29,004 nucleotides of DNA, taken from positions 1 to 29,004 of IMG/VR virus record IMGVR_UViG_3300022074_000272; one strand, given 5' to 3'. Shown piece by piece: positions 8,816 to 29,004 of this stretch (positions are counted from its first letter, which is position 1; each line of letters opens with the position of its first letter). The notes under the pieces are model-generated. The model had not been told where the DNA came from and searched no databases. It saw only the letters and a list, made by a program, of their open reading frames with translations. This DNA is from a virus. The position numbers and the translations under genes were made by a program.

Positions 8816-9709
8816 ATGGCTTTAGCACAATATACTCCAAAAGAATACTACAATAGTAAGAACCAAGGTTATTATCAATTTATATCAATTGACGATATTA
8901 TAAGTAATTTTCTTGTTTCTTATGTTGGAGATGATAAAATAATAAAATCTGCAAAAAGGACTGAAATTGCATACCATGCACAAAGAACTTTGCAAGAGCT
9001 AAGCTATGACACTATAGATAATGTTAAATCAATAGAAATTGAAATACCACCATCATTATCATTTCCATTGCCACACGATTTTGTTAGTTATGTAAGAATT
9101 ACTTGTTTAGATGATAATGGTCTTGAAAGACCTTTAAAGCCGACTAACAATACTACAGCCCCAACCCCTTTTCTTCAAGATCAAGATTATAATCTTTTAT
9201 ATGATAATCAGGGTAACGTATTATTAGGCAAAGAATCTGAAGCTTCAAAAAGGTTTAAGGCTCAAAACGACAACGCTACAGGCACCCCAGATCTATCAGA
9301 CACCAAATATTTAGAAGAAGGCGGAGGGATTAATGTTGATTTTGGTAAAAGATATGGTATTAATCCACAAGATGCAAATAGAAATGATACATTTATAATA
9401 GATCAACCAAGAGGTGTTATATCTTTTAGTAGCGGTGTTAAAAACAAAATAATAATTATAAAATACGTGTCGGACGGATTAAATGTTGACGGGGATATGA
9501 AAATACATAAGTTTGCGGAAGAAGCTATGTATAAGTCTATAGCATTGGCTATCATGTCTGCAAAAGCAAATATACCTGAATACCAAGTAAATAGATTAAA
9601 AAAAGAAAAGAAAGCTACAATGCGTTCAGCTAAAATTAGATTAGCTAACATTAATATGGAAGATCTCACTCAAACTATGAGAGGTAAATCAAAACAAATT
9701 AAACACTAA
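8816..9709 (+). CDS. Head-to-tail connector / ring protein (second, tail-tubular-like)
   Basis: A 297-residue protein next to the first ring protein and overlapping the muzzle ATG by one base (TAATG), which suggests coupled translation and shared assembly. Family-like segments include Y-Y-Q-F-I-S-I-D-D-I-I-S-N-F (about 19-32), A-Q-R-T-L-Q-E-L-S-Y-D-T (about 54-65) and P-L-P-H-D-F-V-S-Y-V-R-I (about 84-95). The last of these resembles the loop common to T7 gp11-type tail adaptors. A polar loop at about 105-195 and a basic C-terminal helix (K-K-E-K-K-A-T) complete it. It probably forms a ring between portal and muzzle. No enzymatic motif is visible. Confidence 0.72.
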   Translation: MALAQYTPKEYYNSKNQGYYQFISIDDIISNFLVSYVGDDKIIKSAKRTEIAYHAQRTLQELSYDTIDNVKSIEIEIPPSLSFPLPHDFVSYVRITCLDDNGLERPLKPTNNTTAPTPFLQDQDYNLLYDNQGNVLLGKESEASKRFKAQNDNATGTPDLSDTKYLEEGGGINVDFGKRYGINPQDANRNDTFIIDQPRGVISFSSGVKNKIIIIKYVSDGLNVDGDMKIHKFAEEAMYKSIALAIMSAKANIPEYQVNRLKKEKKATMRSAKIRLANINMEDLTQTMRGKSKQIKH

Positions 9710-12700: not shown

Positions 12701-15700
12701 AAATAGGCAATGTGCTTATAGATGATCACCGAAGAGGTTTTGGAGGAACTAGAAGGAGAACATATAAGCGTATTCATTTTGCATTTATTGATAAAGATGG
12801 AGATCCTATTAAATTTCTTACAGAAAGTGTTTGTAGAAGAGGCCAGGACACTTGGGGAAAAGAACCTAAAATGGAAGTATTACAAGAAGTTGATGATGAT
12901 GTACAAGATTACATAAAAAACCCCGGCATATTTGAAACCGAACCTTTACAAAGCAAAACAGACTTAGACATATATTTTGAAACTCAAAAAGCGTATAGCA
13001 TAGAAGAGCATGGCCAAACTCATTCTTTAGATTGGTATAACGCTATATGTTTTGGCAATGGGGTTGAATCAAATAGAATAAGGGACGATTTTAATGCTAC
13101 TTTTATTGATTTAGGAGTTAGAGCATCTGCGCCTTTAGCTGAACAATTTAAAGAAGAACACAAATTTAACGGACTCATTTGGTCTGGCATAATAAATTCA
13201 AGATCAGGAACTAATCAATCAAACCAGTTTAATGTTGCTAATCCTATAACAAAAGATTTAATGCCATCATATGGTAGTATTCAAAAACTTTTTGCAAGAG
13301 ATAATGATTTAGTTATATATTGTGAAGATAAAATCGTAAGGGCTTTAGCTGATAAAGATATATTATTTAACGCGGATGGTTCTTCAAATGTTATAGCATC
13401 TAATCGCGTAATAGGCAATGTTATACCTTTTACAGGTGAATATGGTATTTCTACTTTGCCAGAATCTTTTGCTTCATATGGTTTTAGAGCTTATAATGCA
13501 GATCCAAAAAGAGGAGTTATAATAAGATTATCTAAAGATGGTATTACAACAATATCATCTAATTATATGAATGATTTTTTTGATGATAGATTAAAAAATA
13601 ATACTGTTCTTTATTCTTCTTATGATACTTCTAACGGCTTATATAATATAACTTTTGATGGATTAGACACAGTTTGTTTTGATGAAAATGTAAACGGGTG
13701 GGTAACAAGAAAATCTTATATACCTGAGAATGCTATTTCATTAAATAGTACATACTATTCTTATTATGCGGGTAATTTGTGGGAACATGGCAGCACTAAC
13801 GTTCCTAGAAACAATTTTTATAATACACAATACAACTCTGCTGTAGAATTTACAATAAATGATAATCCTTCTACAATTAAAAAATTTAAAACATTAGGAT
13901 ATGAAGGCACATCAGGTTGGATTGCTAAAGAAATACAAACAGACCAAGTAACTGGAACAGAAACATCTTTCAAAGATAAAGAAAATAAGTATTTTGCGAA
14001 TATTACTCAATCAGCAAAAACAATATCTACATTAGATCAAAAGAATTTTTCTGCTCAAGGTATTGGAAAATCGGTGGCAGCAGGTGCAAATTCTTACACA
14101 TCGCAACTTGGTAATGTTTCAAATACAACCGCAACATTTAATTTAAATTTAACTCCAAGCACATTAAAATCAACTGTTGTAACTAAAACACAAGCACCAG
14201 GTGAAGCAATTACTAATGTTGTATTTAAAATATTTGCAGCTACTGGATACCAAATAGATAGTAACGATTTTCAAGGTAATAATTTTAAATTTGAACAAGC
14301 AGCCGTAGATCAAGTTGTTGCAACATTATCTTTAAATGTAACACAACCTACATCCGACTCTTCATTTTCTTATGATGTAGTTGGTAAAACTAAAAAATTA
14401 CCTAGTAAAGTTAATGGTAATTATACTATTTCTGGAGATAATTTTAACTTTACAGAATCAAAAACAGGTACTTTTAATGTTCAAGGTACTTTAGGTATTG
14501 AAAAAATTATTAATAAAAGAATAATAACAGCTAAAAATGGATATTTTTTAACTGATTCGAGCTTTCTTTTAAATAATACTGAAATACAATTACAATTAAA
14601 TAGAATATCTGATACTGTTTATGAAATTATTGAAAGCGTTTTTATTTCTAATAATACGAATACATTAGACTACACAATTACAATAACTCCTTCAGAAATA
14701 GTTGTTTTAGATAAACTTATTTATTCTAAAAATATTGATATAACTGTTTTACCTAATGCAGCAACCCAAAGAATATTAACAGTAAAAGGTGAAAAAGATG
14801 CAGAGGTAAACATATTATTTAGTGGTAATGTAACTGGAACAATAACGGATGTTAATATAAAATTAGATAATACCAATAGAAAAGAAATATTTTTAGATTT
14901 TCCAGCGGGTAATACAGCTGAAACATTTACAATATTGTTTAAAAATTTAAAAGGTACAAAAATAGACACTGGATTTGGAAGTAATACAGTAACTATTTCT
15001 AGAGTAGCTAAAGTGAGAAAAAATGCTGTTCTTGCTATTATTCATTCCAGTACAGCTCAAGAATTTTTTGAAATATCAGATTATATAAATACAGCTAATA
15101 AAAGAGATTTTTCAATTGAATTAACTTTGCCTTCAGGCTCTTATACTATAGGTAAGCAACCAACAAATGCAGATGTTGATTTTGGGTCTAATGATAATAA
15201 TGCAGACATTTCGTTTAATCAAATGACTTTTGCCGCTAGCCCCAATACTAATAAAGTTACAGTTTCAGGAACTTTAAAAATTGATGACTTAATTCAAGAC
15301 GAAACATATACTTTAGATATTAGCAATCTTGTAGGTATTAATGTTACAACTACATTTGATTACGATAATAATTCTAAAGATGGATCAAGCTCTGGTAATT
15401 ATACGGCTGTTTCAACAACTTATACTGTTACAGGGGGTGCAGGATTAATATCAACACCATCAGCAACAGAATATTTTTGGACGCTAACACCTGCATCGGG
15501 GTATTTGTTTAAGGATAGTATTGATGCAGATGATTTTGAGTTTTTAGACAGCGGTAATAATAGTGTATTAAATACCTTTGCCGATAGTAATGAATTATTA
15601 CTTAGAAAAGTAAATAGTACTTTAGAGATTGGTTTTAAATCACAAAATTTTACACAACCTGCAACTAGTCAAACATTTACTATTAGACCTAAAAATAGCA

Positions 15701-17742
15701 CAACACTTACAGAAACTAAACCAGCAACTAGTGCTCCCTTTGTCACTTTACAAGTAAGATTTGAAGGTAAATTAGACGATATTGATGCTGCAGAATTTGC
15801 AATACCTACGGCACTCTCTTCTCAATTAAATAATAATCCAACTGGTTTATCAAATCATACTGTTAATGCAAGAGCTACTAATTTACCTCATAATGCAAAT
15901 TATTTATTTCAAGCCGTAATACCCGTAGGTGTATTAAAAGATTATGGAGTAATTGACCCAAATGATTTTTCAGATGCAAGTAAATTTAGGTATACAGAAG
16001 TTCATGGTGCTTCTAAACTTGCACAGCCTTCTGGTTCCGCTACATATAATTTATTTACTGCAAATTCTTCTACACAAGCAATTACAAGTAAATATTCTTA
16101 TAATACAACCACACATGAACTAACTATTAATATATTAGTTAATTTACAAAGCGACGCAACTTCTGTAATGTTAAAAGCTACTATAGAAGGAGTATTACAT
16201 TCTGACAAAAAATACGACGGCACAACTCTTGTTGATAAATATCATTTAGTATCAGCAAAATCAGATGTTGATTGCACTCATCAACCCGGTAATAGCAATG
16301 AAAATGTTAAACAATATTCAACAAATGACGCTACAAATAGCAGCTTCCCAAAATATTGGGTTACAGACAAAACATTACCTGATGGTAGTAAAATATATAA
16401 ACAAGAAAGCGCTAGTGTTGCAAAACCTGGTTTATTATATGGTGCAGGATTATCCACACAATCTTTTATAGTCGCAGGTGATAAAAGTTTATATAATTCT
16501 AATAATGGTGTAATAACTAAAAAAGAAATTTGTCAAATTATTACTAAAAATAGCAGTGGCGTTGTAACAGATCCTGTTGATTTAATGCAATATGATTATG
16601 ATTGGCATCCTGGGTTTTATCAACACAATGTATACAAAGACACTGCTGAAAATTATATTAATATTAAAAGTGAAATTTACAAAGATACCCTTGTAAAAAT
16701 TAAAGGCCGATGGAAAGTACATGATTTTGATGATACTGATCCTTCTTCAGGCATAAATGTTATTTATAATGATTTTGCAACACCTACAATATGGAGTTCC
16801 CAAAACCAAGTTCCTAATGGGAGTGGAAGTGTAGGGGCACTTAATCCTATAATGTCTTCTTTAATTAATTATAATATTGTAAAAAATCAATTGCAAAGTG
16901 AAGCCGGCATATCTAGTGTATTTGTAAATGATAAAATTAAAATTATTTCAGATCCTTATTTAACTAATTATGGTGAATTAGAAGCTACAATATATTTTGA
17001 TAAAGATGGTATAGGCGTATTTCCAGCAGAGGTATATAGAGGCAAAAGAGGTTATAGAATTTATATAGAATTACAAAATGTTCTTGACCAAACATATATA
17101 AGGCTTCGTAAGCTTTTTTTAAGTCAAGGATATAGTTTAGCAAATGCAGAAGCAAAGGCTCGTACTCAAACGCCAGCTATTGGCCAATATGGCATGAGTC
17201 TTTATCCTAGAATAAATTTACAAGCAGTTGCTTTATATAGACCTTTTGTGGATCTTTCTATTGCACTTAGTGTTAGTAATAGTCGTTCAGGAAAAAATAG
17301 AGGACTTTATGCAACACAGGGATATCTTACTCATATAGGAGGCGGTCAATATTCAATTTCAGGTTCTAGTGGTTTTACACAAATAAGCAGCGTACAAAGT
17401 TATTATGGATTAAAAACAGTAAAACTTTTAGCAGGGCCTAGCAGCGGAAGTGTTACACCGGTATACCCTTATTGGGATGGCAATGTAGATTGGCCTTTTC
17501 AAGGATTAAGGCGTGTGGGTGCTGGTACTTATTCAGCTCATGCTATAGATCCGGCTACAAATAAACCTTTATCGGCTAAATTATATTCTATTCTTGGCGC
17601 AAGCACTATATCAACAGGTAAAAGACAAAGTTTATTTTACAATTCATATAGAACCGACATAAGATTAATTAGATCGGAATTACAAGGAGGAGATGGTATA
17701 GCAGCTGAAAATACTGATTATTGGAAATATGAAATTATATAA
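9709..17742 (+). CDS. Giant stabilisation / muzzle (tail) protein with adhesin-like extension
   Basis: A 2677-residue structural protein that should seal the portal and form the distal part of the short tail. The start is marked by M-N-K-D-L-D-D-R-L (about 14-22) and by P-N-G-E-Y and D-A-L-N-V just after, the hallmark of the stabilisation/muzzle family in crAss-like and marine podovirus-like phages. The family-like core seems to end near residue 1425, at a K-D-K-E-N-K-Y-F-A-N motif. About 1430-2150 is Ser/Thr/Asn-rich beta sequence with several loosely repeated segments. About 2150-2677 is a further unrepeated domain with aromatic and Gly/Ser-rich stretches. This extension suggests host binding. 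It overlaps the preceding stop by one base and is followed two bases later by the next gene. Core assignment is good; the extension's role is inference. Confidence 0.82.
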   Translation: MAELKHTFTSGRMNKDLDDRLIPNGEYIDALNVKVASSESSDVGAIENLLGNEQLSDFYSNDSSAVTIGSISYSLKNKIYWFVTSDESDVIYEYDQKTKETNVVIKDSKTTETVTLDQIILTSNADSELIIQNYNINELETVIQKPIPIQIGEEVLIEHNIDITLEDPYVNISIPKNTILRKEQNGNLDQLVFKNIIYDFPKLGNISPTVTSVKFGILNFSKKNKITGINIIDDLLFFTDGLNPPRRIYIPKFKKYSLNNPSGDTEIEYKTKDVNGVVKTLTQPFTEEDISVAKKAPMNAPDVEVLNSIDGGLTSIQVSLNLFEKITGNTIEITNLPQNPIWQKGDSVEIFSEDTDIQIQATVVSITNDVSLSKRIVLRVDTVEDTTTNSSFPFEIELIQKKPLYELNFPRFAYRWKYDNGEYSTISPFSIPAFFPGDFNYDGKEAFNNGMVNNAQKIILKNFDIGGKDIKEIDILFKETKNNNIYVYETKKKIDFDSSTTPGTVEIEKEKIHSIIPNDQLLRAWDNVPKRAKAQEITANRVIYGNYYQNYDVHTEPDFKIGIEERTDGLNKTIKSDRNYQIGVIYIDEYNRHTPVLTGNNSSIKVAKKNAITKNKFNISLENQPPAWAKYFKYYIKDPSNEYYNLAVDRIYQDEENGFTYVSFPSGERNKITDEHYLLLKKKHGADEFVNDTANRYKIIDIKSDPPEFITNRKRIVLSLGDIVFTDDLAGSGGGNPITNKSNAENNAPLTDYASVQIKQANGSSNGVELTDTAQIKPGRYISFEYLGRDSKKYQIKRLSQHPEGANEIKIDFEDPFKEDVERIYQKNGNLGDTTTNFGVNMNIWEEYSAAGDKEFDGRFFVKLKTNSTLSSAIASQDVGGVSYLAKESVSLIGVYSKNEDSYRSNNGYENKARGRNNAHREAVNPFVLSDGGLKTVGSTPETGKRHKQGSIEYHISFEAATRFLNNEVLKLSKLAKVGNFVRFVNADGTPHHDTIYEIGNVLIDDHRRGFGGTRRRTYKRIHFAFIDKDGDPIKFLTESVCRRGQDTWGKEPKMEVLQEVDDDVQDYIKNPGIFETEPLQSKTDLDIYFETQKAYSIEEHGQTHSLDWYNAICFGNGVESNRIRDDFNATFIDLGVRASAPLAEQFKEEHKFNGLIWSGIINSRSGTNQSNQFNVANPITKDLMPSYGSIQKLFARDNDLVIYCEDKIVRALADKDILFNADGSSNVIASNRVIGNVIPFTGEYGISTLPESFASYGFRAYNADPKRGVIIRLSKDGITTISSNYMNDFFDDRLKNNTVLYSSYDTSNGLYNITFDGLDTVCFDENVNGWVTRKSYIPENAISLNSTYYSYYAGNLWEHGSTNVPRNNFYNTQYNSAVEFTINDNPSTIKKFKTLGYEGTSGWIAKEIQTDQVTGTETSFKDKENKYFANITQSAKTISTLDQKNFSAQGIGKSVAAGANSYTSQLGNVSNTTATFNLNLTPSTLKSTVVTKTQAPGEAITNVVFKIFAATGYQIDSNDFQGNNFKFEQAAVDQVVATLSLNVTQPTSDSSFSYDVVGKTKKLPSKVNGNYTISGDNFNFTESKTGTFNVQGTLGIEKIINKRIITAKNGYFLTDSSFLLNNTEIQLQLNRISDTVYEIIESVFISNNTNTLDYTITITPSEIVVLDKLIYSKNIDITVLPNAATQRILTVKGEKDAEVNILFSGNVTGTITDVNIKLDNTNRKEIFLDFPAGNTAETFTILFKNLKGTKIDTGFGSNTVTISRVAKVRKNAVLAIIHSSTAQEFFEISDYINTANKRDFSIELTLPSGSYTIGKQPTNADVDFGSNDNNADISFNQMTFAASPNTNKVTVSGTLKIDDLIQDETYTLDISNLVGINVTTTFDYDNNSKDGSSSGNYTAVSTTYTVTGGAGLISTPSATEYFWTLTPASGYLFKDSIDADDFEFLDSGNNSVLNTFADSNELLLRKVNSTLEIGFKSQNFTQPATSQTFTIRPKNSTTLTETKPATSAPFVTLQVRFEGKLDDIDAAEFAIPTALSSQLNNNPTGLSNHTVNARATNLPHNANYLFQAVIPVGVLKDYGVIDPNDFSDASKFRYTEVHGASKLAQPSGSATYNLFTANSSTQAITSKYSYNTTTHELTINILVNLQSDATSVMLKATIEGVLHSDKKYDGTTLVDKYHLVSAKSDVDCTHQPGNSNENVKQYSTNDATNSSFPKYWVTDKTLPDGSKIYKQESASVAKPGLLYGAGLSTQSFIVAGDKSLYNSNNGVITKKEICQIITKNSSGVVTDPVDLMQYDYDWHPGFYQHNVYKDTAENYINIKSEIYKDTLVKIKGRWKVHDFDDTDPSSGINVIYNDFATPTIWSSQNQVPNGSGSVGALNPIMSSLINYNIVKNQLQSEAGISSVFVNDKIKIISDPYLTNYGELEATIYFDKDGIGVFPAEVYRGKRGYRIYIELQNVLDQTYIRLRKLFLSQGYSLANAEAKARTQTPAIGQYGMSLYPRINLQAVALYRPFVDLSIALSVSNSRSGKNRGLYATQGYLTHIGGGQYSISGSSGFTQISSVQSYYGLKTVKLLAGPSSGSVTPVYPYWDGNVDWPFQGLRRVGAGTYSAHAIDPATNKPLSAKLYSILGASTISTGKRQSLFYNSYRTDIRLIRSELQGGDGIAAENTDYWKYEII
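14100..15720 (+). repeat. Diverged beta-sandwich-like protein repeats in the muzzle extension
   Basis: Several segments share a loose pattern: a short beta strand, then a Gly-Tyr turn, then an Asp/Ser acidic loop and a Phe-rich strand. Examples start near residue 1505 (F-K-I-F-A-A-T-G-Y-Q-I-D), 1601 (I-T-A-K-N-G-Y-F-L-T-D) and 1920 (T-P-A-S-G-Y-L-F-K-D). A weaker copy is near 1799. Thr-rich strands ending in I-T-P or I-R-P separate them. DNA identity between copies is low, so the repeats are old. They resemble immunoglobulin-like modules of adhesins, but no named domain is claimed. Confidence 0.5.
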
Positions 17743-18070: not shown

Positions 18071-18748
18071 ATGAGAAATACACCTTTAAAATCAATATTA
18101 GACAATTCTCCTTTAAAACAAGCTGAAGAAGCTGCCGGTGGCGGTGGTGGTGGTGGTGCGTTTGGACAAATTGCAGGCGGACTAGCAGGTATTGCCGGTG
18201 GCATTATAGGCGGCCGTGCTCGAAGAAGAGAACAAAGAGCCGCAAAGGCAGAGCTTGCTCAAAGAAAATCAGAATATGAAAACTTTGAATTTAAAGATCC
18301 ATCAGCAAATCTAACAAATACATTTGAAGATTTAACTGTAAACCAGCAACAAGCAAATTTTGCTTCTCAACAGCAACAACAAGGCCTGGCAGGCACATTG
18401 TCTGGTTTAAGAGGAGCAGCAGGTGGTAGTGGTATTGCTGCATTGGCACAAACACTAGCCCAACAGCAATCTACAAATTTACAACAATCATCGGCAAGTA
18501 TTGGGCAGCAAGAAAGAGCTAACCAAATGGCTAGTGCGAGAGGCCAACAAGGCTTGCAAAGAGCAAGAGCCGCTGGACAGCAAGCAAAAGAAGCTAAAGA
18601 ATTTGGAAGAACGGAACAATTATTAGATGCTGCATCACAAAGAAAAGCAGCTGCGGACGCAGCAAGAAAAGCGGCTACAGAAGGATTAGTAGGCGGTATT
18701 GGAAATGTAGTTGCTGGTGGCGCAAGACTTGCCGCTGGCGGAATGTAA
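18071..18748 (+). CDS. Gly/Gln/Ala-rich putative internal virion protein
   Basis: A 225-residue low-complexity protein. After a short polar start come a run of glycines (about 23-30), a glycine-zipper-like segment (G-G-L-A-G-I-A-G-G-I-I-G-G, about 36-48), a basic patch (R-A-R-R-R-E-Q-R) and a long Gln/Ala/Ser helix-forming region with D-L-T-V-N-Q-Q-Q-A near 90. It ends in another Gly/Ala helix. The D-L-T-V-N-Q-Q-Q and G-S-G-I-A-A-L-A-Q stretches match a family common in marine tailed phages. Glycine-zipper helices can insert in membranes, so a role like the T7 internal core proteins (ejected, helping DNA cross the envelope) is plausible but unproven. It stands just upstream of the other proposed internal proteins. 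Confidence 0.65.
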   Translation: MRNTPLKSILDNSPLKQAEEAAGGGGGGGAFGQIAGGLAGIAGGIIGGRARRREQRAAKAELAQRKSEYENFEFKDPSANLTNTFEDLTVNQQQANFASQQQQQGLAGTLSGLRGAAGGSGIAALAQTLAQQQSTNLQQSSASIGQQERANQMASARGQQGLQRARAAGQQAKEAKEFGRTEQLLDAASQRKAAADAARKAATEGLVGGIGNVVAGGARLAAGGM

Positions 18749-18758
18749 AATTTAAATT

Positions 18759-20186
18759 ATGGCAATTAACGCAAGATTATTAGGATTAGCACAAGGGCCT
18801 GGTATGCCTTTAGATTTAGCCGGTGCAGTACAACCAGCTATAGATAAAATGGAAAAAGCTGCGCTTAGAGAAAGACAATTAATAGCAGCAGAAGGCAAAG
18901 CTTTTAAGGAGGCTATGCAAGAAAGAGAAGCTTTTAGTGTTAAACTAATTAGTCAATATAAAGATCCTGAGTTTAAAGGTGTGCCTTCCCAAGGAGTATC
19001 ATGGTTAACTAGTAAAGCTGCGAAAATAAAACAAAATGTTTACAATATTGCAATGGACTCTTCACTGGGTAATTTGCAAAAAACATTGTTAATAAATGAG
19101 CAAAAAGAAAGTGTAAATGAATTAAAAACATGGGCCGACCAATATAAAGAAGCTGGAGAAAATTTTTTAGATCAAACAGATTTATTAAGTAGTTTAAATG
19201 ATTCTACATTAATAAAGCTTAATAAAATGAGACAAGCAGGTGAATTTTATTTAGTAGAAGATAAAGCTGTTTTTGAAATTGATGGTCAAACTATTATAAA
19301 AGAAATGAAAGATCTTCCAAATGCTTTTGGATTAATAGAACAAGATCATAAATCATATAATGATATATTAGAAAAATTAAATACTACTGCTCAAAAACAA
19401 GCTGCTAAAGGCGAAGGCATGAAGGCTGTTACCTTTGAAATTGATAAAGCAATTGAAGGGTTACAATTAACAGACATACAATATGCAACTCTTGCCGTAG
19501 ATCAATTAGGATATTTAGCAGGCGATGAAGCAGGGGTTTTGTTAAAGCAATTAGGTGTTGAAGCTGAAGATTTTAAACAATATTTATCAGAAGATATTGC
19601 GGATGGAAAAATAGTTGATGATGAAAAAGATGAAGCAGGTGGTGTTGTATTAGAAACTTTAAAAAAGTTTGTTGAGGATAATTTAAAATTAGCAACAACA
19701 GACCATTATAATGCTTATTACAAACGTAGTACAGAGGATCCATCTGAAACACAACAAAATAAAACTACAGTTATAAATGATGCAACAGATTTAATGACAG
19801 GTATATTTAATAAAATGCCTGCTAGTATTAGTGGGACTGCTGCTACTGGGGTTATCGATGAAATGATAACTATAATTAAAAGTGAGCCTATATTTTCTAC
19901 AGAAACTATTACAAATCCACAAACTAAAAAAGAACTTTTTCTTAGTATAATTAAAAAAGAATTACCAAATATAACAAATGAAGAAGCTAATACAGCATTT
20001 GAATCTAAATATCCCGGTAATCCTATGTTTTTTATAGGAGATATAGCTATACTTGATATTAATGGATTATTAAATGTATACAATCAAAAATTACCTTCAG
20101 CAAGAAGAATGACAAATTCCGAAATGAAAGATATATTAAATAATCTTATTAAGGATGAAAATATAAATCAAGACTTTTCACAATAA
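18759..20186 (+). CDS. Putative internal / cargo virion protein
   Basis: A 475-residue, largely helical, acidic protein with no cysteine, no membrane segment and no signal peptide. The N-terminus (A-I-N-A-R-L-L-G-L-A-Q-G) is followed by heptad-like charged helices through about residue 230. The remainder is acidic with a K/D/E-rich linker near 280-295. I recognise no catalytic motif. It sits between the Gly/Gln-rich protein and the 2244-residue cargo protein, with gaps of about 10 bases, in the place where related phages encode packaged internal proteins. The call rests on position and composition only. Confidence 0.5.
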   Translation: MAINARLLGLAQGPGMPLDLAGAVQPAIDKMEKAALRERQLIAAEGKAFKEAMQEREAFSVKLISQYKDPEFKGVPSQGVSWLTSKAAKIKQNVYNIAMDSSLGNLQKTLLINEQKESVNELKTWADQYKEAGENFLDQTDLLSSLNDSTLIKLNKMRQAGEFYLVEDKAVFEIDGQTIIKEMKDLPNAFGLIEQDHKSYNDILEKLNTTAQKQAAKGEGMKAVTFEIDKAIEGLQLTDIQYATLAVDQLGYLAGDEAGVLLKQLGVEAEDFKQYLSEDIADGKIVDDEKDEAGGVVLETLKKFVEDNLKLATTDHYNAYYKRSTEDPSETQQNKTTVINDATDLMTGIFNKMPASISGTAATGVIDEMITIIKSEPIFSTETITNPQTKKELFLSIIKKELPNITNEEANTAFESKYPGNPMFFIGDIAILDINGLLNVYNQKLPSARRMTNSEMKDILNNLIKDENINQDFSQ

Positions 20187-20196
20187 AATTAAAAGC

Positions 20197-23100
20197 ATGG
20201 AAGAAAATGAAATCTATATTGTAGATGGTCAAAAATACGAAGTAAACCCAAAAAGAAAAAATGATTTTTTTAAAAAATATCCGAATGCGGTATTATTTGA
20301 AGAACCAGTAAAGATAAACCCCAATGCTCAGGGTGCGGCTGCGGGAGGGGAACAAGCACCCAATACGGATTCCAATTTGGGAAATGGTTCATTGGTATTC
20401 GAACCACCAAAATATGAACAGCAATTTAAAACTTATTTAGACGGGAAAGAAAAAAATAAAGAACAGCGTTTAGAATTTTTAAATAGCGGGCTTGATGCTT
20501 ATGAACCTAAAATATCTAGTGAGGATGCTCTTTCTTATGCAAACATTCTTACAAATAAAATAGATTTTAAAAATTTAAAAGAAGAAGAAGACATATCAGC
20601 TTCTTTAAATACCTCCTTATCCTCTTTAATAAAAGGAGATGAATATATTCAAAAACATTTATTACCTGATCTTCAAGAAATAATACAACCTAAAATAGAT
20701 ACATTTAAAAAACTATTAGAAGGAAAGTATGATTTAACAGATATTAATGAAGTTCAAGAAGCTAATAAAAAATTAGAGTATTATGCTACTCAATTATATG
20801 GTAAAACTATTAGAAATAACAGAACATATAACAATAGAATAAATACTTATAAAGAGGCTGTTTTAGAATCTTATAATAATAAATTTAAAGATTTATCAGA
20901 CGAACAACGCCAAAAGCTAGTAGAGGCAAAAAGAAAAGAATTAGGCATTGCCGATGATACTATGCTAACTGAAGGTGTTAAAAAAGGATTAAGAAATATA
21001 AGTATTGGAATACAAAAAACAGATTTGTCTTTTAAAAATACAAATATACTTAAGCTACAAAAATCAATTGAAGGCTTAAATGATAATGATTTTGTTACAG
21101 AAGAAAGTGGTGCTCAACCTGGTTTACAAGGCGCTCAATATGCTAAAAGAACAAAAGTTTCTGATATAAAACTTCAAATTGCTCAACAAAAAATTTCATT
21201 AATAAATAATTTTGTAGATTTAAGGGGTGATGAAGCAGAATTAGCTTTTTTTAGAAAAGGAGAAACAGAGGGTTTATTACCTAAAAGTTTTGGTGATTTA
21301 GCTTTTTTAGTTGGTGAACAAATACCTCAATTACCTCTTGCTGTTGTAACTTTTGGGGCTGGAGTATTTGCACAAGAATACGGTAATGCATATTTTGATA
21401 CTATTATGGCAAAAATGGAAGCTAATGGTGAAGAATATACAGAAGAAAGATTTTTAGAATATTTAGATTCAGGAGAAGGTGATGCTGCAATTGCGGCGGT
21501 GTCCGCAACAATACAATCCGCTTTAGAATTTGCCGGAGCTGCAACTATAGTTGGGACTTTGATTACAAAGCCAGGTAAAGCAATTCTAAGAACTCTTATG
21601 AAAGATGGAGTTAAAAAATTTATAAGAGCAGGTGGTTTGCAAAGAGGAGGAAAAAATGTAGCAAGAGGATATTTAACAGAATATTTAACAGAAAGCTTTC
21701 AAACTCTTACTTCACAAATTTCAAAAGGATACTCTATTAACGATATAGATAAATATATTGACTTTGATGAAATACAAAAATCTGGGGCTGCGGGTGGCTT
21801 AGTTGGGTTTTTCTTACCATTTGGCAAACAAGTTGCAACACAAACTATAAGAGAAACAAAAGCTGTGACTAATAATATTATTGCAAAGTTTGATCCTAAT
21901 TCTCAAGCGGCAATTTTAAATAATCTTAAAAAAGAAATTACTGCTGCTGTATTAAGTAAAAAAATTACTGAACAAGAAGGTGAGGCTAAAATCAATGCTA
22001 TAAGTGATATTGAAAATTCAAATGCTACGATACCAAAAATTGTTAAAGGTGAAAAAAGAATTGAAGCTATAGAATTATTAATAGAAAAAAGAAAATTAGA
22101 AAACGAAAACCAAAACATTGATAAAGTATTTAAACCAGAAGAACAAATTCAAGAAATTAATCAAAAATTAGGCAAAATATTTATTGAATCAAAAATATCT
22201 AATGAATTACAAAATCAAATTGTTAAAGGAAAACTTTTTGCAAATGAATTAGAAAGAAAATTAGAAACTATAGAAATTAATTCAAAAGAAGAGTTTGTAA
22301 AAAAAGGAAAAGAGTTGGGTGAAAGTTGGGATTTAACCGATGGCGGAAGAATTACTACAGATAAAAAAACAGGTGAATCTAAAATTTATATAAATAAAGT
22401 TGCAGCTGCTGAAACAAGGAATGTTACTGTAATGGGCCATGAAGTATATCATCACGGGCTATTTTCAATTTTACGCACTGAAGAAAATAAAACTGTAGTT
22501 GTTGAACTTTCTAATTTGTTAAAAGAACATATTAAAACTTTAGATCCTGAAACTTTTGGAGAGGATTCATTTTTAGGACAAGTAATGAAAAAATATGAAA
22601 ATGATCCTAATTATACAGAGCAGATGACAGCTGAAGAATTATTTACTTCTATATCTGATTTGTATAACAATCCTTTTCTTAAACTAGATGAAGGCTTTTT
22701 AACTAGGATAGGTGATTTTATAAGAAGGCTATTACAAGACTTAGGATTTAAAAAAATTAAGTTTGATCCCGAGAATAAAGGTAAAGATATATTTAACTTT
22801 ATTAAAGATTATAGTTATTCTGTAAGGAAAGGAAAAACAAGTGGTGCTATAATTAAAGCATTAAATAAAGGTGTTGCAATAAGTCCTGAAATAGAATCCA
22901 AAGCACAAGCAATAGACGATGTGGTAAGCCAAGCGAGTAAAAGTGTTGAACTATCTGAAAAAGCTACAGAGTTATATAGTCAAAAAGGTATTGAAGCAGC
23001 AGGTGAAATAATAGAGCTATTTGATAAACCGTTAAATAATATAGTACAAAAATATAGAAGTGTTCCAAAATATAATTTTCAAGATTTAAAAGATGCTATT

Positions 23101-26100
23101 TCATTTGATCCTGATAGAGGTTTACTGGGCCTTATAATGAAATATAATCCTGATTCTAATGTACCTATTGCGGCATATATAAACAAATACTTAGCACAAA
23201 GATCTAAAGAATTCGCTCAAAAATTATTAGGTACTGAATTTGAATCTGACGTTACCGAAGCAAGGGGTGTAACTGATACTACTACAGAAGAAGTTACTGA
23301 AACACAAGAAACAAAACCTAAAAAAGATTTAGCAGAACAGCTTAATATAACGGAAAAATTAAAACAAGAAGTTTTGCAAGCAACAGAGGCTACGTTTGGT
23401 ACAAGACTTCCTCAAATAACTTCAAAAGAATTTGCTAAAGAATTGACTAAAAACTTTAGAATAAAGTTACAGCCTAAAATTTTAAAACTTGCGGGCAAAG
23501 GTGTTGCTTATGAAACTTTTTTAAGAGATAACTTTGAAACAATATATAAAATTCTTCCGCAGTCTACTATTAATAAAAGATTCAAACCTTTTAAAGAGCC
23601 TGTAATTGACAAGAAAACAGGCAAGCAATTAAGAGAAAGAACAGCAGAAGGTAATAAAGTTTTTATAAAAAAGAAAATATCTAAAGCAGAATGGGTTAGT
23701 TATTTTTTAGGAACAGAAGTAAAAAGGTCTACACAGGGCACACGTAAAACATCTATAGTTGAAGAAGTGGGGGTTGAACTTGCATTTGATGCTGTAAATG
23801 AAATAGTTAAGGACCCTAGTATAATGAATAAATTTAAAGATATTCAAGAATTACAGGGTAATACTTTAGCGGAAAATTATATTGCGGAAATAACAAAACA
23901 AATAGATAGAAATCCAAACTCAAAAGCATCGAAAGGGTTAACCCCTAGTGAGTTTTCGGATATTGCCTTTGAATTTGCAAAAATATTAAAAGAAGATGAA
24001 GGAGTTTTTGATCGTTTTAATAACTATAGGCCTAAAGGATTTACTGAAGATCAACTTGATTTTGTAAAAGATTTTACTATTAAATTATTTGACAACGGTG
24101 TTATTAAAGGAGATACTTTTGGGGGACTAATTTTTGAAGAAGCGCTTGCAAACCAAATGAAAGAATATGGGTTGCCTGTATTAGGTAGTGGAGCCGGATA
24201 TGATAATAACAGCCCAGATTTACAATTTAAGCAAGAAGGGCAAGAAAAACCTTTTTATTTAGAGGCTAAAAAAAGTATAACAGCCAGAATGGGAGGTGGT
24301 AGTTCTCGAGTTTATTTTTCTGGCACAGATCTTAAAGAAGCTAGAATAGATTTTATACGTAACAAAAAAATAGTTGATAGAAAAGATTTACCAAATGTTG
24401 GATTATTTGAAGCTTTTTTTGAAAGGAACATGCCGGCTGTTCGTGAAGCATTGAATTTTATTAATAAAATGGAAAAAGAAATTAATCCCGGAAAACCTGA
24501 GCAAACTCAATTTCCATTAAAAGGAACTATAAAAAGAGAAACTCTCGAAGCACTAGAAAAACAAGAATTCTATAAAAAAGCGTTTGGAAAAGGTATAAAA
24601 ATTACTGTTACAAGCCTTGAAAAGCATTATAATGATAAAGATAATTTTTATATACATATTGGTAAGGGAAAGGGAACTTATTTTATAGGCCAAAATATTA
24701 AAAATTTACCAGCTGATAGATTTGATGTCGAATTAAAAATGGATTTTTATTTAAAATCGAGTGGGAGTGGGACTAATAAGAATAGAGAAAACAATTTAAT
24801 ATATACTGCTTTTAGAAATGAAATGTCTGTTTTTAACTCAAAAAAAGTAAAGCCTTCTAAATTTAATATAGAAAATAAAATTGATGCGGAAATATTAAAA
24901 GAAAAACTTACGTCTAAAGCATCGAAAGGATTAAGCAGACAGTTTAATGAATTATTACAAGCTACATCAGGTGTACCATGGTATGAAAAGTTTTCACCTG
25001 CAAAAGCACAACTTGTTGGACAATCAAAAGGCAGATTTAAATTCTTTATACCCTATTCAGCTGAAGACTTTATGGGATTATTATATGCTACTCTTGGTGA
25101 AGGAAAACTTGGTAACCAGCAAAAACAATGGTATGAAGATAATTTAATAAGACCATTTTCACGCGGTATACAAGCATGGCAAAGAGAAAAAGAAAATTCA
25201 CTTAGAGAGTGGGCAGCATTAAAAAAAGAAGCAAGTAAAGATGTACCACTTAATCTTACAAAAAAGAACAGTACTGGATTTACAAATCAAGATTCTGTAA
25301 GATTATATATATGGTCTAAACAAGGAATGCCTATTGAAGGTATTCTTAAAAAAGAAATAAATGAAAATATAAAAATTGTAAGAAATGATCCTTTATTAAA
25401 AGCTTTTGCTGAAAGATTAATGGTTTTAAACCCAGAAGGTTATCCTGCTCCTACAAGTAATTGGACTTCCGGCGATATTACAACCGATCTTGTAGCCTAT
25501 GTTAATGATGTGAGAAGAACTGAATTTTTAGAAGAGTGGAGTAACAATGTAGATTTAATATTTACTGATGCAAATAAAAACAAACTACGAGCATTATACG
25601 GAAACGGATATGTTGAAGCATTAGAAGATATTCTTACCAGAATGAAAACCGGTAGAAACAGAAGATCAAGCGCTGGAAAAATTGAAAAAGCATTTTTAGA
25701 TTGGACAAATGATTCAGTTGGAACTATTATGTTCTTTAATACCAGATCTGCATTATTACAAACTTTATCTGCTGTAAACTTTATAAACTTTAGTGATAAT
25801 AATCCTGTTATGGCTGGACTAGCTTTAGCTAATTTTCCACAATATGTTAAAGACTTTACAACATTATTTAATTCAGACTTTTTAAAACAAAGACGATCTG
25901 GTTTACAAATAGATGTAAATGCAGATGAAATTGCTAATTCTGCTAAAACGTCAAAAAATAAAGTAAGAGCAATATTAAGTGCTATTCTTAAATTTGGTTT
26001 TACACCAACACAAATAGCGGATTCATTTGCAATTGCTTCAGGTGGTGCTTCGTTTTATAGAAACAGAATAAATAAATATAAGAAAGGGGGAATGACAGAA

Positions 26101-26931
26101 CAGCAAGCTGAACAGCAAGCATTTTTAGATTTTCAAGAAATAGCAGAAGAGACACAACAATCTGCAAGACCTGATAGAATTTCAATGCAACAAGCAGGTG
26201 GTTTAGGCCGTCTTATATTAGCTTTTGGTAACACCCCTATGCAATATGCTCGTCTTAGTAAAAAGGCTGCATTAGATTTAATTAATGGAAGAGGAGATTG
26301 GAAGACAAATATCAGTAAGATTATGTATTATAGCGTAATACAAAATATTATATTCTCATCCTTACAATCTGCTTTATTTACGCTTCTGTTTGACGACACA
26401 ACAGAAGATGACGAAAAGAAAAGATATTTTAGATTAATCAATCAAAGCGCAGATTCTATTTTAAGAGGTGTTGGTGTTTATGGTGCTGTTGCTTCAACAG
26501 TAAAAAATGTAATATTAGAAATTATAGAACAATCTAAATCAAAAAGACCAGATTATGCAGATGCAGCAATTGAAGCTACTCAACTGTCACCTCCTATTAA
26601 TTCTAAACTAAGAAAATTAATTTCTGCAGGTAATACTTTTACATTTAAACAATCTAAAGAAAAAGTATTTACTGAAGGATTTAGCTTAGATAATCCTGCT
26701 TTTTTAGCTGGTGGTAAAATACTTTCAGTTGGCTTAAATTTACCAGCTGATAGAGTTATTTTAAAATTAGATCACTTATATACTGCAATGAAACCAGAAA
26801 CAGAGCTTTGGCAATCTATAGCTTTAACCCTTGGGTATTCTGAGTGGGATTTAAATATGATTGAAAAACAAACAAAAAGAGATTTTCAAAAAGAAATTAA
26901 CAGAATAGAAAGAATATTAAAAAAATTATAA
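20197..26931 (+). CDS. Giant multidomain cargo (polyvalent) protein with zincin-like and nuclease-like domains
   Basis: A 2244-residue protein that most likely travels inside the virion and enters the cell with the DNA. Visible parts in order: a polar N-terminus; helical region 100-350; a hydrophobic/amphipathic stretch at about 365-480; an H748-E749-V-Y-H752-H-G metallopeptidase-like motif with a candidate third ligand in A-E813-E814-L-F; linker 880-1240; a 331-residue block (1243-1573) with P1340-D1341 followed after 14 residues by E1356-A-K1358, the PD-(D/E)XK pattern; and a C-terminal region (about 1580-2244) resembling the conserved tail of marine phage polyvalent proteins, with a hydrophobic helix near 2041-2065. 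The stop overlaps the next ATG (TAATG). That it is a cargo-type protein is fairly sure; enzyme activities are predicted from motifs only, and cleavage into smaller proteins is possible. Confidence 0.78.
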   Translation: MEENEIYIVDGQKYEVNPKRKNDFFKKYPNAVLFEEPVKINPNAQGAAAGGEQAPNTDSNLGNGSLVFEPPKYEQQFKTYLDGKEKNKEQRLEFLNSGLDAYEPKISSEDALSYANILTNKIDFKNLKEEEDISASLNTSLSSLIKGDEYIQKHLLPDLQEIIQPKIDTFKKLLEGKYDLTDINEVQEANKKLEYYATQLYGKTIRNNRTYNNRINTYKEAVLESYNNKFKDLSDEQRQKLVEAKRKELGIADDTMLTEGVKKGLRNISIGIQKTDLSFKNTNILKLQKSIEGLNDNDFVTEESGAQPGLQGAQYAKRTKVSDIKLQIAQQKISLINNFVDLRGDEAELAFFRKGETEGLLPKSFGDLAFLVGEQIPQLPLAVVTFGAGVFAQEYGNAYFDTIMAKMEANGEEYTEERFLEYLDSGEGDAAIAAVSATIQSALEFAGAATIVGTLITKPGKAILRTLMKDGVKKFIRAGGLQRGGKNVARGYLTEYLTESFQTLTSQISKGYSINDIDKYIDFDEIQKSGAAGGLVGFFLPFGKQVATQTIRETKAVTNNIIAKFDPNSQAAILNNLKKEITAAVLSKKITEQEGEAKINAISDIENSNATIPKIVKGEKRIEAIELLIEKRKLENENQNIDKVFKPEEQIQEINQKLGKIFIESKISNELQNQIVKGKLFANELERKLETIEINSKEEFVKKGKELGESWDLTDGGRITTDKKTGESKIYINKVAAAETRNVTVMGHEVYHHGLFSILRTEENKTVVVELSNLLKEHIKTLDPETFGEDSFLGQVMKKYENDPNYTEQMTAEELFTSISDLYNNPFLKLDEGFLTRIGDFIRRLLQDLGFKKIKFDPENKGKDIFNFIKDYSYSVRKGKTSGAIIKALNKGVAISPEIESKAQAIDDVVSQASKSVELSEKATELYSQKGIEAAGEIIELFDKPLNNIVQKYRSVPKYNFQDLKDAISFDPDRGLLGLIMKYNPDSNVPIAAYINKYLAQRSKEFAQKLLGTEFESDVTEARGVTDTTTEEVTETQETKPKKDLAEQLNITEKLKQEVLQATEATFGTRLPQITSKEFAKELTKNFRIKLQPKILKLAGKGVAYETFLRDNFETIYKILPQSTINKRFKPFKEPVIDKKTGKQLRERTAEGNKVFIKKKISKAEWVSYFLGTEVKRSTQGTRKTSIVEEVGVELAFDAVNEIVKDPSIMNKFKDIQELQGNTLAENYIAEITKQIDRNPNSKASKGLTPSEFSDIAFEFAKILKEDEGVFDRFNNYRPKGFTEDQLDFVKDFTIKLFDNGVIKGDTFGGLIFEEALANQMKEYGLPVLGSGAGYDNNSPDLQFKQEGQEKPFYLEAKKSITARMGGGSSRVYFSGTDLKEARIDFIRNKKIVDRKDLPNVGLFEAFFERNMPAVREALNFINKMEKEINPGKPEQTQFPLKGTIKRETLEALEKQEFYKKAFGKGIKITVTSLEKHYNDKDNFYIHIGKGKGTYFIGQNIKNLPADRFDVELKMDFYLKSSGSGTNKNRENNLIYTAFRNEMSVFNSKKVKPSKFNIENKIDAEILKEKLTSKASKGLSRQFNELLQATSGVPWYEKFSPAKAQLVGQSKGRFKFFIPYSAEDFMGLLYATLGEGKLGNQQKQWYEDNLIRPFSRGIQAWQREKENSLREWAALKKEASKDVPLNLTKKNSTGFTNQDSVRLYIWSKQGMPIEGILKKEINENIKIVRNDPLLKAFAERLMVLNPEGYPAPTSNWTSGDITTDLVAYVNDVRRTEFLEEWSNNVDLIFTDANKNKLRALYGNGYVEALEDILTRMKTGRNRRSSAGKIEKAFLDWTNDSVGTIMFFNTRSALLQTLSAVNFINFSDNNPVMAGLALANFPQYVKDFTTLFNSDFLKQRRSGLQIDVNADEIANSAKTSKNKVRAILSAILKFGFTPTQIADSFAIASGGASFYRNRINKYKKGGMTEQQAEQQAFLDFQEIAEETQQSARPDRISMQQAGGLGRLILAFGNTPMQYARLSKKAALDLINGRGDWKTNISKIMYYSVIQNIIFSSLQSALFTLLFDDTTEDDEKKRYFRLINQSADSILRGVGVYGAVASTVKNVILEIIEQSKSKRPDYADAAIEATQLSPPINSKLRKLISAGNTFTFKQSKEKVFTEGFSLDNPAFLAGGKILSVGLNLPADRVILKLDHLYTAMKPETELWQSIALTLGYSEWDLNMIEKQTKRDFQKEINRIERILKKL
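23923..23940 (+). repeat. Direct repeat, upstream copy (encodes KASKGL)
   Basis: AAAGCATCGAAAGGGTTA, preceded by a serine codon, encodes S-K-A-S-K-G-L at residues 1242-1248. It matches the downstream copy at 17 of 18 bases and lies in the same frame. Confidence 0.8.
23923..24915 (+). other. In-frame inserted nuclease-like module inside the cargo gene
   Basis: The block is 993 bases (331 codons) from one copy of an 18-base repeat to the next, so its loss by recombination would leave the reading frame intact. It encodes residues 1243-1573. Upstream acidic residues sit in G-G-L-I-F-E1314-E1315. The P1340-D1341 ... E1356-A-K1358 pattern follows, then a Gly-rich loop (M-G-G-G-S-S) and an F-S-G-T strand. 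The second half has aromatic beta strands (F-Y-I-H-I-G-K-G-K-G-T-Y-F-I-G). This resembles restriction-enzyme-fold nucleases. Specificity cannot be read from sequence. Confidence 0.6.
24916..24933 (+). repeat. Direct repeat, downstream copy (encodes KASKGL)
   Basis: AAAGCATCGAAAGGATTA encodes the second S-K-A-S-K-G-L at residues 1573-1579, which runs on into the conserved C-terminal region of the cargo protein (S-R-Q-F-N-E-L-L). It differs from the upstream copy only at the third base of the glycine codon. Confidence 0.8.
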
Positions 26932-28164: not shown

Positions 28165-29004
28165 TTATCCATCGCAGCTTAAACAGTTAGGATCCATAGC
28201 CGCTGCCGCTATATCTCCCCTCAACACGGATTCAGTTCTCATATAATATAAAGTTTTAATCCCGCGCTTCCATGCTTCCATATGAACTTGGTTGATCCAT
28301 CTTGGCGTTGCCTCTGACGGAAATGCTAAATTCAATGAAGCAGATTGATCTATGTAGTCTTGGCGTATTCCTGCCTGTCTTACAAGTTCAAGTTGATTTA
28401 TTTCTTTAAATGTTTTAAAAACATTCTTTATTGATTCCCCTTCTTCTTGGTTTAATCGTCCTCTTTCATCGTAAAACCATCCATCGAGCTGCTTAAGTCC
28501 TTGAACGGATCCACCATCTTCCAAAATTTTGTCCCAAGTTTCTTTGTTATCAATACCAATTTTTCTAAGTGCTTTTTTAAGTTCATTGTTTTTTCTTATA
28601 AATGTACCCTTAGCTGATTGTTCTGTAAATACATTAGCGGCCCACGGTTCAATACCCGCTGAAGTGTTACCAGCTAATTTACTATTAGATACAGTTGGGG
28701 CTGTTGCTCTTAAATGTGTGTTTCTAAATCCTGTTCCAACGCACCAAAGTGGTTCCCCGTATGTTTCCGCTAATGCTCTTGAAGCGCGTTCGGTTTCAAT
28801 TTTTATTTTTGAAAAGATTTCTCGCGTTTTGAATTGTGCTAATAAGCCTTCGAAAGCTATACCATTTTTCTGTAACAGGCTGTGCCATCCAAGGACACCA
28901 AGTCCAAGTGCCCTGCCTTTCTCCGCACTGCGTACAGAGTTCTCGAATCCTTTCATATTCTTTGCCCTCTGAATAAATTCTTCTAGCACACCGTCCAGGA
29001 ACCA
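28165..29004 (-). CDS. nrdA: Ribonucleotide reductase large subunit (class I NrdA), N-terminal part outside the window
   Basis: The C-terminal ~280 codons of the class I enzyme that reduces ribonucleoside diphosphates to deoxy forms for phage DNA synthesis. Evidence includes R-A-L-G-L-G-V-L-G-W-H-S-L-L-Q, N-T-H-L-R-A-T-A-P-T, then S-A-G-I-E-P-W-A-A-N-V-F, and the late S-A-S-L-N-L-A-F-P and R-G-I-K-T-L-Y-Y-M-R-T-E-S motifs. The end C-L-S-C-D-G carries the CxxC pair that reloads the active site from thioredoxin or glutaredoxin. The frame stays open to base 29004 (W-F-L-D-G precede the GTG at 28989), so that GTG is internal and the gene continues beyond the window. It is leftward, the start of an early/metabolic module. 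The small subunit gene nrdB is not seen here. Confidence 0.94.
   Translation of the reverse strand, partial: WFLDGVLEEFIQRAKNMKGFENSVRSAEKGRALGLGVLGWHSLLQKNGIAFEGLLAQFKTREIFSKIKIETERASRALAETYGEPLWCVGTGFRNTHLRATAPTVSNSKLAGNTSAGIEPWAANVFTEQSAKGTFIRKNNELKKALRKIGIDNKETWDKILEDGGSVQGLKQLDGWFYDERGRLNQEEGESIKNVFKTFKEINQLELVRQAGIRQDYIDQSASLNLAFPSEATPRWINQVHMEAWKRGIKTLYYMRTESVLRGDIAAAAMDPNCLSCDG

Follow-up and report, generated by a model that had tools for sequence, protein, structure and literature searches.

The DNA analysed here (the window) is the 29,004-base virus record IMGVR_UViG_3300022074_000272 of a marine crAss-like phage, in which a single open reading frame (ORF) at positions 20197-26931 of the plus strand, the strand of all features given below unless stated otherwise, encodes a protein of 2244 amino acids. 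We read it as a polyvalent protein of the crAss type that serves as virion cargo and that would be injected and cut by its zincin-like domain at short xSK motifs, and we assign this reading a probability of roughly 45%. What is encoded is a real, modular and widespread polyvalent cargo protein of the crAss type: the chain combines several unrelated domains, its modules are exchanged independently of one another, the motif stands at their junctions and, in the clade of the window, it is linked with the zincin. We infer that the protein is likely to be packaged in the virion, and that it may be injected, cut and divided into pieces with roles of their own. An earlier annotation made from the sequence alone (the original prediction) had proposed several separable activities in one polypeptide, in the manner of polyvalent toxins, and this view fits well with the independent exchange, with the motif-bounded modules and with a relative, L250, whose gene is divided in two at one of the boundaries.

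Relatives were collected in two scans. The first gave nine loci, and in the second, run with a profile built from the C-terminal 671 residues, at least 538 relatives were confirmed, of which 80 loci were retained; the 81 full ORFs from both scans were reduced to 67 by removal of near-copies and encode 1878 to 3432 amino acids. Since at least 538 related stretches are present in one collection, a common phage group is concerned. A scan with the N-terminal 964 residues confirmed no relative, though L011, found through the C-terminal domain (CT), is 52% identical there.

The zincin-like domain (approximately residues 690-870, positions 22264-22806) carries the signature residues H748, E749 and H752 of an HExxH motif (residues 748-752, positions 22438-22452) together with E814 (22636-22638). 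The HExxH region singled out in the original prediction is also present ahead of CT in 62 of the 67 non-redundant relatives, and E814, which falls in helix 808-822 of the model, is invariant in 28 of 28 aligned members; these were picked for having HExxH, so that E814 alone is informative. According to excerpts of a survey of polyvalent proteins (PMC5512222), HExxH plus a glutamate in the following helix is the pattern of their metallopeptidases, a trait that is common in this class and not required. Seven of the 28 members weakly matched Pfam Peptidase_M78 (best E value 7e-4) and two matched SprT-like (best E 0.012), while the window's own domain matched no Pfam peptidase family and nothing among the sequences of the PDB. 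We consider the presence of a zincin domain highly probable. In L040, L041, L042, L044, L045, L049, L051, L053, L055, L056 and L068, a second HExxH is found in an extension after CT.

Downstream of the zincin lies a module resembling domain 2 of sigma-70 factors (approximately residues 916-1012, positions 22942-23232), which, like the three junction motifs, was not mentioned in the original prediction. Two structure models were available, covering residues 1-1200 and residues 1201-2244. In the first, the predicted local distance difference test (pLDDT) score over residues 921-1010 ranges from 69 to 86 by blocks of ten residues. A structure search with this model gave matches to sigma chains over approximately residues 909-1013 in 39 of 50 rows, the best of which (6ca0_F, Z 9.8, 17% identity and a root-mean-square deviation (rmsd) of 2.6 across 90 residues) lies below the Z of 13 under which, according to the tool, helical folds may match by chance; the best rows elsewhere in the same model were coiled coils with Z 8.4. 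Because such Z values may be due to chance in helical bundles, sequence profiles were tested. Profile A8 (47 rows), which had drifted in iteration, matched sigma factors with a probability of 11.5 (E 0.0026). Profile A10, composed of 33 of these rows picked after the A8 result had been seen, matched four sigma factors of E. coli, aligned in register with region 2, with a probability of 80.7 (E 1.3e-5), ten sigma factors, six of them from contigs of the relatives, with 84.0 (E 7.6e-6), and the six phage sigma factors alone with 21 (E 0.001). As controls, an unrelated profile gave 0.2 and, in a rerun, the real profile scored 31.5 compared to 18.4 for its reversed version and at most 14.9 for 20 shuffles. 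There was no sigma factor among the matches of the module to PDB sequences, plain Foldseek gave no significant sigma row (E 0.9 or worse), and Pfam region 4 had no match in the MID block of six members. Taken together, structure and profiles point to a domain 2 fold with the sequence of regions 2.1-2.2, and the sigma-like module is in our view very probably genuine.

Separate sigma genes were matched in all 12 tested contigs of relatives, in 11 of them over the cut-off, as open frames of 243 to 265 amino acids; the six that were read contain region 2 and what looks like region 4. RNA polymerase was searched for in the same 12 contigs, which are possibly fragments and in which divergent crAss-type polymerases may be missed, so that absence is not established: neither the DFDGD pattern nor PF00623 (controls 14/14) gave a match, and the same holds for PF00940, for which the controls were silent as well, and for crAss001 gp50, which was used without a positive control. 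These phages may depend on the host polymerase.

The slot further downstream (approximately residues 1303-1573, positions 24103-24915) holds a PD-(D/E)xK nuclease-like domain, in agreement with the nuclease-like insert of the original prediction. Its catalytic pattern D1341 (24217-24219)...E1356-A-K1358 (24262-24270) is located on or adjoining model strands 1342-1344 and 1353-1358, i.e. on adjacent strands of the core fold. The first eight rows of the structure search were the Holliday-junction resolvases 1ob8, 2wcw, 2wiw, 4tkd, 2wiz and 2wcz (Z 5.4 to 6.6), I-Ssp6803I (Z 6.5) and a SPARDA chain (Z 5.1), all of which we take to share the PD-(D/E)xK fold. A Z below 8 can reflect a common arrangement, and it is the catalytic pattern that makes the match more than that; we consider a nuclease fold in the slot highly probable. 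Relatives of the nuclease of the window and L011 were found by slot profile in L050, L085, L056 and L069 (E 5e-10 or better) and, weaker and partial, in L001, L061 and L009. The slot of 19 of the 67 relatives contains a block of motifs that we presume to be of the HAD type, a label based on known motifs and on weak, below-cut-off DUF2608 matches in L003 and L086. GNAT-like and ADP-ribosyltransferase (ART)-like labels, given by eye to slot parts of L002, L006 and L009, found no Pfam support; in L006 and L009, the HAD-type block is interrupted by the insert that looks ART-like by eye.

CT (residues 1574-2244, positions 24916-26928, about 670 amino acids) is 56 to 74% identical to that of the window in the other eight members of alignment A1; the C-terminal domain of the original prediction is confirmed, and it is strongly conserved. 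Among viral structures, the model of residues 1201-2244 matched uncharacterised relatives best (E 1e-37 or better), followed, with large rmsd and E values of 9e-8 to 2e-2, by proteins annotated as ART-PolyVal-like or large polyvalent protein associated. Also with large rmsd and going by deposited labels, it matched a protein of Tenacibaculum phage Gundel_1 labelled 'Structural protein' (E 2e-7) and, more weakly, one of Flavobacterium phage elemoC (E 0.013). LPD38 (PF18857) was found in none of the 12 contigs of relatives, with the controls silent too. CT is probably a packaging or ejection part.

The modules move INDEPENDENTLY, since the trees of CT (67 rows) and of the MID block (residues 965-1240, positions 23089-23916, whose start overlaps the sigma-like module; 22 rows) conflict and the identities to L011, the sister of the window in the CT tree, differ by module. 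Five members without HExxH form one clade in the MID tree (100/100), yet they occupy five separate positions in the CT tree. Window and L011 are 53.7% identical over residues 71-600, 49.2% over 601-903 and 52.7% over 907-1242, compared to 87.0% over 1244-1573 (the slot) and 78.7% over CT, with 68.6% in the N-terminal tag (residues 1-70, positions 20197-20406). Among the first seven relatives, residues 1-900 and 1276-1575 are variable, and residues 976-1200 are conserved in four and poorly so in three. The zincin, the sigma-like module, the nuclease fold and CT represent unrelated domains in one phage polypeptide, as in polyvalent proteins.

The motifs J1 (QASKSVE, residue 912, positions 22930-22950), J2 (KASKGLT, residue 1243, 23923-23943) and J3 (KASKGLS, residue 1574, 24916-24936) part the zincin, the sigma-like module with the MID block, the slot and CT, and all three fall within stretches of low model confidence (residues 878-917, 1208-1245 and 1573-1577, respectively). 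Upstream of CT, FSK occurs 120 times in the 67 proteins compared to a shuffle mean of 31 (24 to 49), an excess partly due to shared ancestry. Within the window's clade, 23 members in which the MID block is clear, 17 with and six without zincin, were compared at the junctions, using a strict ([FALEY]S[KR]) and a loose ([FAELQVY]S[KRLS]) form of the motif with backgrounds of 3.4% and 7.7% per window of 11 residues. In the zincin-bearing members, the strict form was present at J1 in 14/17, at J2 in 15/17 and at J3 in 16/17 (45/51 in total) and the loose form in 51/51, compared to 0/18 and 1/18 (VSS at J3 of L001), respectively, in the members devoid of zincin (L001, L015, L025, L029, L059 and L092), in none of which a zincin-like domain was detected by profile. 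Near misses in the latter are SSK at J1 of L025 and L059, and LSK or LSR a few residues on, inside CT, in L015 and L029; a broader form of the motif still occurs 0 or 1 times elsewhere in each zincin-less protein. L025, which carries a HAD slot like its zincin-bearing relatives, reads QAKKPAKSL at the junction that is QAKVQFSKSL in L046. A first form of the rule also scored two of the six zincin-less members (taken to be L015 and L029, with their LSK/LSR inside CT). When J3 was restricted to its register, 45 of 62 proteins with HExxH and 0 of 6 without it scored among 68 proteins (Fisher p 0.0009, uncorrected for kinship). The ends of aligned blocks lie near motifs in 152 of 1666 cases in zincin-bearing proteins, a moderate excess over the 81.7 expected, and in 2 of 123 in the others (1.6 expected).

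The register-restricted rule was fixed before an unseen set was fetched by two more scans, which comprised 157 new ORFs and, after subtraction of 69 near-copies, eight partial and four short or odd ones, 76 non-redundant proteins. The motif was again enriched: its strict form was present in 31 and the loose one in 44 of the 72 HExxH-bearing members, at a strict background of 3.2%. All four members lacking HExxH have the motif and contain a zincin-like domain by profile (E 4e-17 to 3e-8). What the motif is linked with is therefore the presence of the domain and not, strictly, that of an intact active site; in distant clades this link is loose.

A different kind of evidence comes from the zincin-less L250, left out of the 76 as short. 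Its first gene, a frame of 1307 codons with the first ATG at codon 5, contains the MID block (E 2.7e-71) and the sigma-like module (E 1.1e-37) and no zincin, and ends in an ATGA overlap with a 702-amino-acid gene that starts MTCFKKKGRPKSLSRQFNEIL and corresponds to CT from J3 on. In this phage, CT is separated at the J3 boundary by other means; it is a single case of a split, and the first gene has four stray matches to [FALEY]S[KR]. L065 (4741-9930 and 9914-11983), in which CT likewise appears as an ORF of its own, was rejected as a fission, as the break is due to a frameshift within the HAD region, L065 being otherwise a near-copy of L064.

Several observations count against the proposed reading. 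With regard to the sigma-like module, besides the possible chance match of helical folds, Pfam Sigma70_r2 was matched by only one of the 47 A8 members, at E 0.15 and with no other Pfam support, and it was outscored by the unrelated family GDC-P (two of 47, best 3e-5), which is a weak point of the assignment. The tryptophan pair of region 2.3 is missing, with YINKY or the like aligned to YATWW of RpoD and RpoS, and the module is for this reason not classed as a full sigma factor. Both structure models have a low mean confidence (pLDDT 59.6 for residues 1-1200 and 57.4 for residues 1201-2244). As for the motifs, the junction pattern was chosen post hoc, and the zincin-less members of the window's clade share one MID origin, so that their losses of J1 and J2 represent one event. 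In the unseen set, 41 of 72 zincin-bearing members lack the strict and 28 the loose motif, and the motif is present in all four members without HExxH, the opposite of what was predicted; L220 has HExxxH, and L161, L171 and L235 have a glutamate replacing the first histidine, with the motif kept. The motif in these members and the loose link in distant clades lower our confidence in self-cutting, and we put cutting by the zincin at the xSK motifs at even odds.

The strongest competitor, which we nevertheless regard as unlikely, is an uncut polyvalent protein that would be packaged, ejected and working whole, like the virion RNA polymerase (vRNAP) of phage N4, with the zincin acting as an effector or as a structural domain, and with the xSK motifs being no more than flexible linkers or boundary marks that domain shuffling has left behind. 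The N4 vRNAP, which has an HExxH domain, is described as packaged unprocessed in the parts of PMC5512222 and PMC12633501 at hand, a further point against self-cutting. Such a protein would also fit the distant clades, where the motif is often missing despite HExxH, the three members that keep the motif next to an altered zincin site, and the motifs J2 and J3 of the window, which are identical in 19 of 21 bases, as a recent duplication would give. On the other hand, within the clade of the window the occurrence of the motif tracks that of the zincin domain, L250 demonstrates that CT can be a separate polypeptide, and the serine codons differ between copies elsewhere: [QKR]FSKx is present in 115 copies in 68 proteins, and 20 of 68 pairs of copies within a protein share the codon compared to an expected fraction of 0.261, so that it is the peptide and not the DNA that is kept.

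Even less probable appears to us a maturation protease, i.e. a zincin trimming the protein before packaging such that only a part would enter the virion, as proposed for DdrB of phage P1. Available passages of PMC5512222 name this precedent, and trimming before packaging fits the same motif and zincin data; no datum here separates it from cutting after injection. A DNA recombination site was rejected as the sole cause of the motif, given the differing serine codons, the near-identity of J2 and J3 in the window notwithstanding.

According to the proposed self-cutting of an injected polyvalent protein, the chain would be carried in the particle and leave it together with, or ahead of, the DNA, and the zincin would cut the chain at the motifs at residues 912, 1243 and 1574. 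This would free the N-terminal helical part together with the zincin, the sigma-domain-2-like module, which could bind host RNA polymerase and help to start phage transcription, the PD-(D/E)xK nuclease, which could attack host or competitor DNA, and the conserved CT as the probable packaging or ejection part. It is a doubtful extension of this scheme, and we rate it below the uncut protein, that a virion-delivered, self-cutting polyprotein seizes the host RNA polymerase with its own sigma-like subunit before any phage gene is expressed, replacing the virion RNA polymerase of the gut Crassvirales. If true, an injected sigma-like module would be a candidate answer to the question of how crAss-type phages with no recognised RNA polymerase start transcription, polyvalent proteins would have in xSK a first candidate for a processing site, and enzymes (nuclease, HAD-type and others) could be swapped like cartridges in the slot that lies between two such sites. 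The motif offers a concrete, testable site for the proposed zincin self-cutting. There are also natural variants that lack both the protease and the sites, and one whose gene is instead divided at the boundary.

Polyvalent proteins are a known class, for which self-processing by their own zincin was proposed by Iyer et al. 2017 (PMC5512222, seen in part). The protein of the window resembles them in combining unrelated enzymes in one large phage protein, with the zincin as their commonest domain, but differs in its sigma-like module, the term 'sigma factor' being absent from the text of that paper, and in its candidate cutting site, none being named in the sections available. The nearest worked example, the N4 virion RNA polymerase gp50, is likewise a giant ejected protein with a helical N-terminus, an HExxH domain and a large helical C-terminal domain (PMC12633501, in the accessible part), but has a T7-like polymerase, whereas the window protein, whose parts come in a different order, has a sigma-like module and a nuclease slot. 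Compared to Hjc-type resolvases and other PD-(D/E)xK nucleases, the slot domain shares the catalytic D...ExK pattern and the fold, but is embedded in a cargo protein and reaches a Z of just 5.1 to 6.6. To our knowledge, phage-encoded sigma factors are separate proteins; the module shares the domain-2 fold with them, but is here joined to the other domains of a presumed virion protein and has no tryptophan pair. Sigma factors are also treated as separate phage proteins in the portions consulted of a review on jumbo phages (PMC7824862), and the text of a review on Crassvirales (PMC10136315) is without the word 'sigma'. Searches of open-licence papers turned up neither a virion cargo protein with a sigma-like module nor a cutting motif in polyvalent proteins.

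The gene order places the protein among crAss-type cargo. Terminase (phrog_6681), portal (phrog_6547), a 413-amino-acid protein and a structural protein (phrog_13704) are followed by proteins of 254, 226 and 297 amino acids, by a muzzle of 2677 amino acids (Pfam PF25729, E 1.5e-10), and by proteins of 107, 225, 475 and 2244 amino acids. crAss001 has its genes in the order muzzle gp44, gp45, gp46 and gp47, and its proteins gp45, gp46, gp47, gp49 and gp50 were detected in virions, according to the sections of PMC10172136 to hand. The 2244-amino-acid gene, within the structural block and after the muzzle gene, therefore occupies the place of the 262-kDa cargo protein gp47, which is close in size (2341 amino acids) and also has an HExxH (at 2157). 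The CT, zincin and sigma-like profiles, however, gave no trustworthy match to gp47 (best per-domain value 0.092, for the zincin profile), and BLAST gave none; gp47, gp49 and gp50 are called RNA-polymerase-associated in the same partial source, as opposed to the lack of polymerase matches in the 12 contigs of relatives. The whole 2244-amino-acid protein had just two weak, unrelated matches in Pfam and nothing usable in PHROGs, among PDB sequences or, by tblastn, among phage records, from which records near the window were possibly excluded.

The original prediction had also described hydrophobic stretches near both ends and proposed that they form part of a trans-envelope DNA conduit. The stretches exist, but are modest: the 19-residue Kyte-Doolittle peaks are 1.41 (residues 368-386, positions 21298-21354), 1.55 (residues 2047-2065, positions 26335-26391) and 1.44 (residues 2092-2110), all below the usual membrane cut-off of 1.6; with regard to a membrane-spanning channel segment like that of ejectosome proteins of the T7 gp16 type, no segment attains this value, and the model is of low confidence there. 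The N-terminal maximum is hardly above chance, with a median of 1.415 and at least 1.3 in 97 of 134 HExxH-bearing relatives compared to 1.36 and 33 of 59 in shuffled N-termini. Helix 2047-2065 is conserved among relatives; its model pLDDT is below 50, at which a buried helix and a membrane helix are not distinguishable. The conduit is thus not supported. In crAss001, the authors of the study expected gp45 and gp46 to make the channel (PMC10172136, in part). By position, the 225-amino-acid protein with a glycine-rich stretch (18071-18748) and the 475-amino-acid protein (18759-20186) would therefore be the likelier channel parts, the latter being a candidate for ejection as well.

In the model of residues 1-1200, helices make up most of the N-terminal part, as had been proposed. 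Residues 253-375 (positions 20953-21321) are predicted to form a long helical hairpin that matches a pre-ejectosome chain of cyanophage A4 (9k2v_a, Z 7.0) and also prefoldins, and which may be merely a common arrangement. The short N-terminal tag is one of several exchangeable, unrelated types among the relatives and, in many members, is followed by a similar low-complexity linker (GKTxPTxPGAVVEETAAP-like); the tags of L059 and L019 are 83% identical despite different next modules. Such tags might be address or packaging signals. The muzzle-like protein (9709-17742) is approximately twice as long as crAss001 gp44 (1371 amino acids) and has its Pfam crAss_MUZ_C match in the middle of the protein (residues 1366-1433). 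Downstream of the 2244-amino-acid gene, small ORFs are followed by a fragment of the large subunit of ribonucleotide reductase on the reverse strand (28165-28989; phrog_84 positions 544-795), near the end of the record.

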